Origin: Paenibacillus daejeonensis DSM 15491
Lineage (GTDB): Bacteria; Bacillota; Bacilli; Paenibacillales; Paenibacillaceae
Assembly (NCBI RefSeq): GCF_000378385.1
Contig: NZ_KB899659.1
Coordinates: forward strand, 771,418 to 835,417
DNA: 64,000 bases
Reading direction: 5' to 3'
Shown here: positions 4,179 through 56,935 of the stretch, in pieces
How the letters are laid out: each line of letters begins with the position of its first letter
How positions within the stretch are numbered: position 1 is the stretch's first letter
The notes under the pieces: model-generated
What the model was told of the DNA's origin: nothing
The model's input: only the letters and a program-made list of their open reading frames with translations
Databases searched by the model: none
Program-made: the position numbers and the translations under genes

Positions 4179-4207
4179 AAAAAAAACCTCTCCCTAAAGG
4201 GACGAGG
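4179..4207 (-). terminator. T-box leader terminator
   Basis: CCTCGTCCC TTTA GGGAGAGG followed by eight T on the minus strand, between the T-box motif and the ileS start. It is the off-state hairpin of the T-box switch. Confidence 0.85.
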
Positions 4208-4336
4208 CTTGCTCGCGTTACCACCCTAATTCCGGCACACACCCAAAACAGGTGAGCCGGCGCTCTAGTCGCGGACTGTCATCCGCGCTCCATGGTAACG
4301 GTGGATACCCGGCAACACCTACTTGAAGAGCGGCGC

Positions 4337-4478
4337 ATTTGATCACGAAGTAACGCAGGGAAGTGGTTTCGACGTCGAATCTTAAGCTCAGTTGAAACTT
4401 CCGGTGCTCACGTAGGCTTACCTACGCTCCGCTCCTCATTTCCAACTTCCCTTAACCTTCTCGGTGCTGAAAACCGCC
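4337..4478. repeat. Dispersed repeat, copy A, inside the ileS T-box leader
   Basis: It shares long blocks with the copy at 56747-56912 in the same orientation: TTTGATCACGAAG, CTTCCGGTGCTCACGTAGG, CCTACGCTCCGCTCCTCAT and CTTCTCGGTGCTGAAAA, with variable sequence between them. The central CGTAGG-CTTA-CCTACG can form a hairpin. No coding potential or clear terminal inverted repeat is seen in this copy. Confidence 0.8.
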
Positions 4479-4680
4479 CTATCTTTGAATCGATTGCAAT
4501 CAATTCAAATTACCTTCGTAAACTCAGCCTAACTCTAATAGCTTCAGCGTTGCTTCTCGGAGAGGATTTTGGGCTGGGGTCTGATCATCGGCTCTCAGCA
4601 GTTGCCGACTCTCTGGAGATCATCCTTGCAGCTTACTCGTTCTCGTCATTGAAGTTATATTACATACGGTTATTGCTTTA

Positions 4681-42062: not shown

Positions 42063-42193
42063 CGGGATGGCTCCCTTCACTTGTTTACCTTTCTCTCCTT
42101 ATCATAACAAGAATGCACACGTTTGTCTTGCTTCATTACGAGAACGAGCTCAGGAGCGCCTCCTGCGACGCTCCTGCCCATTCCCTTTACCGA

Positions 42194-43525
42194 TTAGAGC
42201 AAGTCTGTTGCGAGCTGAGCCAGTCTTGAGCGCTCCCCTTTTTCCAGCGTGATATGGCCACTCAGCCCTTCCTGCTTGAAGCGTTCCATAATGTACGTCA
42301 ATCCATTGCTTACTGCATCCAGGTACGGATGGTCGATTTGCTCGGGATCTCCCATCAGAATGATTTTACTTCCTTCCCCTACACGAGAAACGATCGTTTT
42401 CACTTCATGCTTGGACAAGTTCTGCGCTTCATCGATGATGATGAACTGTCCTGGAATGGACCGGCCTCTGATGTACGTCAAGGCTTCCACTTGAATACTT
42501 CCCAGACCCATCAGGATCTTATCAATATCGCCAGCTTTTTTGGTGTCAAAGAGGTATTCCAGATTGTCATAAATGGGCTGCATCCACGGTCTCAGCTTTT
42601 CATCCTTCTCACCGGGCAAATAACCGATATCTTTCCCCATAGGGACCACAGGCCTGGCGATTAAAAGCTTCTTATATTTGTGCTCGTCTTCAACCTTGAG
42701 CAGTCCGGCGGCCAGCGCAAGCAGGGTTTTGCCTGTACCGGCCTTGCCGCTTAAGGTAACGAGTGGAATGTCATCATTGAGCAGCAATTCCAGCGCCATC
42801 CGCTGCTGGGCATTGCGCGCCGTAATGCCCCATACGGGATCATTGCTCAAGAAGAGCGGCTCCAGCTTGCTCCCGTCTTGAGATACTTTAAGCAGCGCAG
42901 ACTTGGAGGTTCCCATTTCATCCCGCAAAATAACAAACTCATTGGGGTGCAGCTTGGTTTTGATGGACAACGATTTGACCGATAGGAAGCGATAAGAATA
43001 AAACTCATCTATAACCGCCGGATGGACGTGGATGGTCAAGTTGCCGCTGTAAATATCCGATGCTTCCACTGTCTGATCAGACAGGTAGTCCTGTGCTTCA
43101 AGACCGAGCACATCCGCCTTGATCCGCACGAGCACATCCTTGCTGACAATCACGACCTGCCTTGGCGTTTCCTTCTCTTGTTCTTCCAGCGAGTAATTAA
43201 GGGCCACCGCCAGAATCCGGTTGTCATTGGACATGTCCCCGAACATTTCTTGCACCCGCACGAAGCTGCGATGATTCAGCTCAACCTTGAGCACTCCCCC
43301 CCTCTCTAGCACGATTCCCTCATGAAGATGACCCTGCTCCCGCAAACCGTCCAATAACCGTGAGACCGACCGGGCATTGCGCCCCAATTCATCAGCCAAA
43401 CGCTTCTTGGAATCAATCTCTTCTAGGACCACGGCCGGGATGACCACCTCATTATCTTCAAAAGCATAGATGGCTTGGGGATCATGCAGAAGCACATTGG
43501 TATCGAGCACGAATATTTTTTTCAT
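42194..43525 (-). CDS. phoH: PhoH family protein with N-terminal PIN domain (YlaK type)
   Basis: 443 residues in two domains. The PIN-like nuclease domain (about residues 1-150) starts KIFVLDTNVLLHDPQAIYAF and carries the acidic residues expected. The PhoH ATPase (about 225-440) has Walker A GKAGTGKTLLALAAGLL and Walker B FIIIDEAQNLSKHEVKTI. Such PIN-PhoH proteins are linked to RNA processing or toxin-antitoxin-like functions; the role here is unproven. The ATG at 43525 follows AGGAGGG. It is divergent from the YlaJ-like lipoprotein, as in the yla cluster of B. subtilis. Confidence 0.93.
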   Translation of the reverse strand: MKKIFVLDTNVLLHDPQAIYAFEDNEVVIPAVVLEEIDSKKRLADELGRNARSVSRLLDGLREQGHLHEGIVLERGGVLKVELNHRSFVRVQEMFGDMSNDNRILAVALNYSLEEQEKETPRQVVIVSKDVLVRIKADVLGLEAQDYLSDQTVEASDIYSGNLTIHVHPAVIDEFYSYRFLSVKSLSIKTKLHPNEFVILRDEMGTSKSALLKVSQDGSKLEPLFLSNDPVWGITARNAQQRMALELLLNDDIPLVTLSGKAGTGKTLLALAAGLLKVEDEHKYKKLLIARPVVPMGKDIGYLPGEKDEKLRPWMQPIYDNLEYLFDTKKAGDIDKILMGLGSIQVEALTYIRGRSIPGQFIIIDEAQNLSKHEVKTIVSRVGEGSKIILMGDPEQIDHPYLDAVSNGLTYIMERFKQEGLSGHITLEKGERSRLAQLATDLL

Positions 43526-56241: not shown

Positions 56242-56284
56242 TCCTGCAGATCACTGCAGATTGCTAGGTTACAAATGTTCGTTA

Positions 56285-56690
56285 CGGAAAGCCTGCCATA
56301 AGCCGGGTTCTGTGCTTCTGGTGGTCCAAACGGGAACGACCCTCCCACTAATGAAGCGACAATCATCTATCTAGACAAACCATTGCTGATTCGTTCAAGC
56401 GACCAACCCGAATGCACTCCGGTGCCAGAGCTGCGTTGCCGCTGCATTCTCTTCGGTCTTGCTCCAGATGGGGTTTACCAGCCGCTATGTCACCATAGCC
56501 GCTCGTGGTCTCTTACACCACGGTTCCACCCTTGCCTGTGCAGGCCTTGCGGCCAGCCATCGGCGGTCCATTTCTGTGGCACTATCCTTCGGCTCGCGCC
56601 GACTGGACGTTATCCAGCATCCTGCCCTGTGGAGCCCGGACTTTCCTCTCGCAGCGCGAAGCTGCCAGCGATTGTCTGTCAAACTTTCCG
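56285..56690 (-). ncRNA. rnpB: RNase P RNA, bacterial type B
   Basis: The catalytic RNA subunit that matures tRNA 5' ends. The minus strand shows the universal blocks GAGGAAAGTCCGGGCTCC near the 5' end, AAGGGTGGAACCGTGG-type text, GGTAAACCCCATC and, near the 3' end, AGAACCCGGCTTATGGCAGG. The P1 helix CGGAAAG/CTTTCCG joins 56690 to 56285, giving about 406 nt, the type B size. The promoter at 56702-56730 predicts a start near 56695. Confidence 0.95.
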
Positions 56691-56730: not shown

Positions 56731-56746
56731 TGTTCAACATAAGGAT

Positions 56747-56912
56747 GTTCAAAAGGCCACTTTTGATCACGAAGCAATCCAGAGAAGCTTACTCGACTTC
56801 GAATCTTGAATTCAGCCGAAACTTCCGGTGCTCACGTAGGTACACCTACGCTCCGCTCCTCATTTTCTACCTTCATTCAACCTTCTCGGTGCTGAAAAGC
56901 AACCTTTTGAAC
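56747..56912. repeat. Dispersed repeat, copy B, upstream of rnpB
   Basis: A 166-bp element bounded by a perfect ten-base inverted repeat, GTTCAAAAGG at 56747 and CCTTTTGAAC ending at 56912. It shares its core with copy A in the ileS leader, including CTTCCGGTGCTCACGTAGG and CCTACGCTCCGCTCCTCAT; the core hairpin is CGTAGGT-AC-ACCTACG. It lies between the Nif3-family gene stop and the rnpB promoter. Confidence 0.85.
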
Positions 56913-56935
56913 TTTTAATAAAGTAGTTGATCAAA

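Follow-up and report, generated by a model that had tools for sequence, protein, structure and literature searches.

What kind of sequence occurs twice in this 64,000-nucleotide stretch of DNA (the whole of it is called the window here) and has one of its copies inside the leader of ileS? The preliminary description of the window saw in it a dispersed repeat family that could be either a small mobile element or a structured RNA module. Our analysis found both mobility and compensatory change, a combination that fits both proposals at once, and the explanation that we favor, with a probability of roughly 0.45, is a non-autonomous transposon of the MITE type with a structured-RNA body. The features on which this reading is built are collected in Table 1.

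Table 1. Coordinates, in the window, of the two copies of the element, their parts, the interrupted T-box leader and an unoccupied site
Feature	Position	Strand	Basis or remark
Copy A, structured core	4327-4481	minus	Covariance model built with copy A; 141 bits as L001
Copy A, most conserved hairpin and internal loop	4402-4437	minus	GAGGAGCGGAGCGUAGGUAAGCCUACGUGAGCACCG on the RNA strand
Copy B, entire element including its ends	56741-56918		End definition from the family comparison
Copy B, structured core	56751-56906	minus	Covariance model, G000:C1:828168-828323, 164.8 bits
Copy B, left end AAGGATGTTCAAAAGG	56741-56756	plus	Family consensus GAGGTTGTTCAAAAAG
Copy B, right end CCTTTTGAACTTTTAA	56903-56918	plus	Family consensus CTTTTTGAACACGCAC
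ileS T-box leader, 5' half (Stem I and first Stem II strand)	4470-4658	minus	RF00230, 56.9 bits
ileS T-box leader, 3' half (second Stem II strand with AGUA, antiterminator/terminator)	4195-4340	minus	RF00230, 51.8 bits; relatives' alignment
Empty site	42078-42195		Intergenic; G003 has two tandem copies there, the window none

The kinship of copies A and B is real. A search of the window with copy A returned copy B at 56762-56898, aligned over 137 bases at 82.5% identity (136 bits, E 6e-35), against 28.3 bits for the best chance match of copy A in 50 dinucleotide-shuffled windows. The two copies do contain exact blocks in common, which by eye reach 22-23 bases, slightly above the 19-20 bases first given, and the ten-base inverted repeat said to bound copy B was recovered as GTTCAAAAGG / CCTTTTGAAC. 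The RNA strand is the minus strand of the window in both copies. The central hairpin had been called compensated between A and B; this was a mistake, because A and B have the same stem, CGTAGG/CCTACG, and differ in the loop alone. True compensation occurs elsewhere in the family and not between these two copies, and the conclusion drawn from the hairpin, that structure is under selection, is supported although that specific argument was wrong. Likewise, the count of two copies is correct for the window and not for the genome, which has dozens, and these further copies have a common fold. Rfam searches gave no family covering copy A, copy B or the element; the matches seen were RNase P and a split T-box, which adjoin the copies, and two lncRNA families at chance level (E 7.7 and 3.2). 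The bacterial RNase P RNA gene occupies window positions 56284-56687 on the minus strand, with copy B ~53 bases upstream of the RNase P 5' end.

The source genome (G000; other genomes and single loci are given G and L numbers) belongs to the Paenibacillales and has 7,464,058 bases. The 48 matches of a DNA search in this genome correspond to 41 copies, including one that is truncated; both ends of the unit were recognised in 40. A search by ends added five core-bearing copies of a divergent subfamily (L212, L213, L219, L228 and L230), bringing the core-bearing copies to at least 46, and also gave copies that are ends-only or mostly deleted (L215, L221, L223, L225 and L235). Core-bearing copies are mostly 170-220 bp long and ends-only copies <100 bp. 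Inspection of copies A and B agrees with the preliminary description that no reading frame is conserved. Identity to the nearest neighbour is 85-98%, and 39 of 40 copies have such a neighbour over most of their length. Several loops of the body have received extra hairpin modules of ~32-40 bases, often with GTTTCC..GGAAAC and GCTTCGTAAGCAT (L012, L034, L035, L212, L213, L230 and L322-L325); these modules differ between orthologous copies. Head-to-tail arrays of at least two elements at ~185-base spacing were seen at L052 (G022), L057/L074 (G018), L068 and L115, and in G023, G235 and G237; where they were read (for example L052 and L115), the tandem units hold the duplicated target bases in common.

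The ends have the consensus GAGGTTGTTCAAAAAG ... CTTTTTGAACACGCAC and form imperfect 16-bp inverted repeats, GAGGTTGTTCAAAAAG and GTGCGTGTTCAAAAAG agreeing at 13 of 16 positions; by eye, both matched ends are present in 20 of the 40 copies of the source genome. We compared the flanks of 106 copies from G000 and its relatives, a set that includes at least one element, L073, twice, once for each strand, and found agreement of 0.71, 0.70, 0.68, 0.58 and 0.65 at five positions, where 0.65, 0.42, 0.34, 0.42 and 0.60 were expected. Among the 45 copies agreeing in the middle three positions, agreement in the outer two is 0.91 and 0.89 against an expectation of 0.80 and 0.76, and the next positions outside the five are at chance level. 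Because the excess of agreement is limited to five positions, we define the element as GAGGTTGTTCAAAAAG ... CTTTTTGAACACGCAC with a 5-bp duplication TWWWA in a preferred CTWWWAG. With a stricter end definition and each element counted once, the 5-mers are identical in 49 of 113 copies with both ends (mean 5.0 and maximum 13 in 2000 shuffles), the left borders being TTATA in 15, TATAA in 11, TTTTA in 11 and others in the rest. This count replaces a looser one (187 Paenibacillales pairs, 44 identical) whose loose end patterns admitted chance pairs. Identical 5-mers also occur in 16 of 34 copies from the distant genomes G175 and G165 (3.9 when shuffled, maximum 11), and in 8 of 14 entries from bins labelled Burkholderiales and UBP9 (0.6 when shuffled, maximum 5 of 1000), these 14 entries being 13 elements, one of which was entered with two possible ends. 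Target-site duplications, which had been named beforehand as something to look for, were thus found in three sets of genomes.

Copy B has no recognisable target duplication at its borders, and the mobile ends of copy A have decayed, being near-intact in the orthologous copy of a same-genus relative (L329/L191). Occupied and unoccupied sites can nevertheless be compared directly in the window. The intergenic site listed last in Table 1 is empty here and filled in G003, with an assembly gap lying between the two tandem G003 copies, and at the site of copy A five same-genus relatives (L192, L193, L194, L196 and L197) have a short loop instead of the element. The family is a mobile DNA element, and we regard this as practically certain.

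A DNA search found the element in 19 of 58 relatives, G000 included, and the covariance model found it in 52 of 118 genomes of the taxonomic family, representing 12 of 19 genera. The distribution is patchy, also within the genus: G000 and G003 have many copies, G006 has one, and G001, G002, G004 and G005 have none. Orientation with respect to the flanking genes, which were approximated by long reading frames, is random for 40 copies of G000 (both genes opposite in 12, both the same in 12, mixed in 9 and 7). A regulatory RNA at a fixed place was rejected as a general reading because orientation is random and distribution patchy. Some copies lie close to the end of a long reading frame, within ~10 bases as measured from the edge of the match (L009, L015, L022, L024 and L035 in G000), as do L287 and L289/L303 in G175 and L295 in G165; certain G175 copies are flanked by genes that look, by eye, like rpiB, glyA and upp.

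The compensatory changes proposed as a check on the fold are present in the family alignment, which contains 59 copies from several genera and was tested with a seven-helix structure of 43 pairs, 90.6% of its cells being paired. Both sides have changed in 27 of the 43 pairs (shuffled mean 17.6; slid controls 11-17), double changes occur in 201 cells (48.5 shuffled; 27-59 slid) and the covariation score is 0.276 (0.116 shuffled; 0.039-0.076 slid), with the qualification that these sequences themselves helped to define the structure, so that the slid control is generous to it. None of 500 shuffles matched any of these values. The fold also has a preferred strand. On the minus strand there are 179 G-U pairs and 38 A-C mismatches (84 and 38 without the two pairs where G-U is most frequent). 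The consensus fold calculated with RNAalifold has -22.9 kcal/mol on the window-minus strand, compared with -9.5 for its complement, and the window-minus strand is also the better folder in 57 of 63 single copies. Stability itself is not striking: three single copies folded on both strands (six folds) gave z-scores of -1.0 to -2.3 against shuffles. Because single-copy folds are only 1.0-2.3 standard deviations below shuffles, the case for structure rests on covariation and not on stability. From the comparison of sequences we consider it very probable that the body is under selection as a folded strand.

Bacterial MITEs are usually seen as passive remnants of insertion sequences, and the element could be an ordinary one of these, an internally deleted insertion sequence whose body is functionless and whose folding is an accident of shared descent and recent spread. 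The size, ends and target duplication are typical of MITEs, and the close identity of the G000 copies to their nearest neighbours, the modest z-scores and a set of ends-only copies with a common junction in G175 (see below) all agree with such an origin. We think it unlikely, as it is strained by compensatory changes far above both kinds of control, by the strand-specific excess of G-U and by the presence of the hairpin in other phyla, where the ends are unrelated.

Strand asymmetry alone does not separate RNA from folded single-stranded DNA. The attC sites and the ends of IS200/IS605 are recognised as folded DNA strands, and if the body of the element were recognised in this way during replication, tolerance of G-T wobble would yield the same asymmetry. 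A weak bias in G030, which is a single contig, goes in that direction: the exact left end GAGGTTGTTCAAAAAG occurs 19 times on the plus and 8 times on the minus strand in the first half of the chromosome and 10 times on the plus and 15 times on the minus strand in the second, the halves being taken without locating the origin. Against this, a 5-bp duplication with inverted ends suggests double-strand DDE chemistry, and the long internal-loop motifs of the element are conserved as in RNAs. A functional fold in DNA and not in RNA seems improbable to us.

The insertion of copy A provides a closer view of one element in place. At the gathering score, Rfam yields no T-box in the window; with an E-value threshold two partial matches to RF00230 were found, both below the gathering score of 93, and the one of 51.8 bits, which spans 4195-4454, threads through the insert. 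Copy A occupies the terminal loop of Stem II, preceded by the GAA strand and followed by the AGUA strand, and both strands of the stem are present. The split match, together with the short loop of the five relatives, bears out the placement of copy A inside the ileS T-box leader, and G003 has the element with near-intact ends at the same place. Judged by its sequence, copy A appears to lengthen Stem II of the ileS T-box, giving this riboswitch-like leader an extra arm, and the recognisable T-box parts remain. The leader probably still works, and copy A, lying inside a T-box leader, would be transcribed. In G014, which belongs to a different genus, a copy (L205; contig 4, 242062-242199) lies outside the T-box, a short distance upstream of the leader of ileS.

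The comparison of 19 G003 regions gave seven insertions common to G000 and G003. At these orthologous sites, 290 pair comparisons with letters comprised 219 unchanged and 71 changed pairs; among the latter, 10 were compensated (0-3 in slid controls), 17 were kept by a one-sided change and 44 were non-standard in at least one genome. Five of the ten compensated pairs belong to the T-box copy. This mixture of compensated or kept pairs with non-standard ones indicates that the fold is partly kept and partly lost in place. It bears on a further explanation, in which the body is an RNA module useful to the host (a UTR element, a terminator or a stabiliser) that the transposon spread and host use has kept, in the manner of MITEs that function within mRNA. 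The retention of copy A in two species with its five compensated pairs speaks for a host role, as do the seven common insertions and the several copies within ~10 bases of a gene end. The 44 non-standard pairs among the 71 that changed do not suit it, nor do the random orientation to flanking genes and the presence that is patchy even inside the genus, and we consider a host-maintained module rather unlikely.

Copies reduced to their ends are informative on whether the body is needed for the spread of the element. The 16 ends-only copies of Paenibacillales (<100 bp) have identical 5-mers in 6 cases (shuffled mean 0.6), and because all 16 interiors are unrelated to one another they look like separate deletions and not like short elements that multiply; the G030 regions were likewise selected by their ends, and loss of a helper may have preceded the deletions. 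The 16 ends-only copies of G175 have identical 5-mers in 11 cases (shuffled mean 2.7) and all differ as exact strings. With slightly looser end patterns, G175 has six 41-bp copies with one junction within two changes, and five ends-only copies of 38-39 bp resemble one another as well. This likeness means either that one deletion between the arms happened repeatedly or that short elements multiplied there without the RNA. Because these short copies have a common junction, the argument that the body is needed for spread is weak, and a requirement for the RNA in the element's own spread is possible and in our view somewhat doubtful.

A helper transposase with matching ends, also anticipated in the preliminary description, was sought and none was found in the genome parts read. 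G000 has 46 left-end places, and the 30 that were read for a matching right end within 1.5 kb gave no coding element. By eye, G049, G023, G012 and part of G030 have no facing pair of ends 0.7-5 kb apart, and 40 scanned regions of G030 contain no autonomous partner. A full listing of the ends in G175 and G165 gave five facing pairs <5 kb apart in G175, which hold no transposase, one of the five having been read without its first 640 bases; the genes between them are, by eye, what we take to be of the housekeeping type (trigger factor, clpP, glyA, upp and others). PF01609 had no match at E 1e-5 in G030. The IscB domain PF14239 was present in 1 of 23 element-bearing genomes (G175) and in 0 of 17 without the element, and a link to IscB was rejected since this domain is not associated with the element. 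The HEARO / IscB omega RNA is a structured RNA dispersed with a mobile element, some of its copies being without the protein gene; our element differs in having inverted ends and 5-bp duplications, and it has no Rfam HEARO match.

The Tn3 transposase domain PF01526 was found in 8 of 23 element-bearing genomes and in 0 of 17 without the element (Fisher p 0.006, the test having been run after the groups were chosen by presence of the element). Tn3-family transposases and the miniature elements derived from Tn3 (TIMEs) make 5-bp duplications, and the element could be a TIME moved by transposases of that family. Ten transposase loci were examined, and Tn3-type ends were recognised at two of them (L330 and L331), neither matching the ends of the element; PF01526 had no match in G030, a genome with 169 end matches. 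The general description of TIMEs as elements with inverted ends and no transposase applies to our element as well (PMC4133298). Taken with the mismatch of the ends, we find a Tn3 derivation highly improbable.

How far the element extends was followed beyond the family. A sample of 149 genomes of the phylum gave five matches, three in the element's own family and two in the distant genomes G165 and G175, the latter being the one matched genome of a class that has four in total. In both, the whole unit is recognisable, with the ends GTGTTCGAAAAGG ... CTTTTCGAACATCCTC, the same body and an outer stem in which one change has been compensated. At least 115 stretches in GTDB contigs matched a pattern for the central hairpin; they come from Paenibacillus, Cohnella and Fontibacillus and from bins labelled Burkholderiales, UBP9, 'bacterium' and Polyangiaceae. 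In the bins with these four labels the covariance model fits the hairpin region and not the whole unit. The Burkholderiales/UBP9 unit has 177-218 bp and unrelated ends (CCTGAATCCGCCGCC ...), again with 5-bp duplications. Contamination of bins could blur the names of the hosts, not the existence of variant ends.

The bases of the lower hairpin stem differ by lineage. The six pairs next to the loop motif are standard in 457 of 540 cases in Paenibacillales, 6 of 6 in G165, 59 of 72 in G175 and 46 of 54 in Burkholderiales/UBP9, sums that were made without a shuffle control and that exclude the Polyangiaceae copies, which the stem-pair pattern missed. Pairing is least complete at pair -2/4 in Burkholderiales (4 of 9) and at pair -5/7 in G175 (4 of 12), the two pairs further out hold in Burkholderiales and mostly fail in Bacillota, and the internal loop of the hairpin covaries as G-C, U-A and C-G. 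The element core was found on three plasmids, all of Paenibacillus, and no Burkholderiales or G175 version was found on plasmids; there were 0 exact core matches in viral contigs and 0 in phages. A paper on small RNAs of Thalassospira gives in its Table 5 a putative small RNA of Thalassospira lucentensis, TTCGGTGCTCACGTACTTTTAG, from two places in the genome (PMC6413936, as far as seen); this RNA has 13 bases in common with the central hairpin, with which it shares CGGTGCTCACGTA. The recurrence of the hairpin across phyla, with unrelated ends and 5-bp duplications, raises the idea of a transposon superfamily defined by its RNA and not by its ends or its transposase. Such an RNA-dependent DNA transposon would have carried one folded RNA from phylum to phylum, the RNA being part of the transposition machinery together with a protein partner; we put this forward as an unlikely extension of the main reading.

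In kind the element is a MITE, and the known system closest to it in the way it works is the bcr1 repeat of the Bacillus cereus group. In the portions of the bcr1 papers available to us (PMC6542083, PMC3446304, PMC2267715), bcr1 is dispersed and MITE-like, reaches up to 130 copies per genome, is often in UTRs, is described as restricted to the B. cereus group and has a mobility associated with 5-base TTTAT repeats; conserved secondary structure was scored in PMC2267715. By description alone, the two are alike in their MITE-like nature, 5-base borders and conserved folding; they differ in that our element duplicates TWWWA and not a fixed TTTAT, so that the TTTAT border rule is not followed. Copy A had no match at E 1e-5 in B. 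cereus plasmids. The CIR repeats of Caulobacter and other alphaproteobacteria, which are intergenic, ~110 bp long and highly conserved between species, and whose RNA folds keep phylogenetically conserved features in Caulobacter and Brucella, are by their description a precedent for a repeat fold kept beyond one genus (PMC2229807). Their two-armed fold around GANTC sites is unlike that of the element, and the passage on them in PMC2229807 describes no compensatory change, target duplications or occurrence in other phyla.

Bacterial MITEs in general, as characterised in the parts of PMC10969869 and PMC2229807 consulted, resemble the element in being short and non-coding, with inverted ends, target duplication and AT-rich intergenic targets, and their folded transcripts would have a counterpart in it; these parts report no body conserved by compensatory change across distant lineages with unrelated ends. 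The REPs moved by RAYT are 20-40 bp long and have GTAG/CTAC at the base of a hairpin, as the central hairpin of the element does, and they differ from it in that the element has inverted ends and 5-bp duplications (PMC3733652, in part). The tandem repeats of 20-21 and 52 nt that are abundant in Paenibacillus (PMC8161180, in part) are a different thing. Our literature search, within the extracts it returned, gave no description of this element.

The favored reading, a MITE-type transposon with a structured-RNA body, joins these results to a proposed mechanism. The element inserts as a unit with imperfect 16-bp inverted ends and duplicates 5 bp of the target; its anatomy suggests that a DDE-type transposase acting in trans would cut these ends with a 5-bp stagger. 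The body folds preferentially on the window-minus strand, and compensatory changes have kept this fold; the whole unit occurs in distant Bacillota, and other phyla have the central hairpin, there joined to unrelated ends. The folded RNA or single strand might, more speculatively, aid multiplication, perhaps by attaching to a host factor or to the machinery of transposition. A folded RNA that aids spread would explain why the body is conserved despite random orientation, patchiness and partial decay in place.

In distant Bacillota the middle of a MITE-like element has been preserved as a folded strand, and the hairpin in it has been preserved outside the phylum too. If the RNA takes part in the spread of the element, RNA would have a role in DNA transposition that is new. 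Alternatively, the RNA may serve the host, or the parasite may protect itself by being a well-folded insert, for which the copy in the ileS T-box leader is an illustration.
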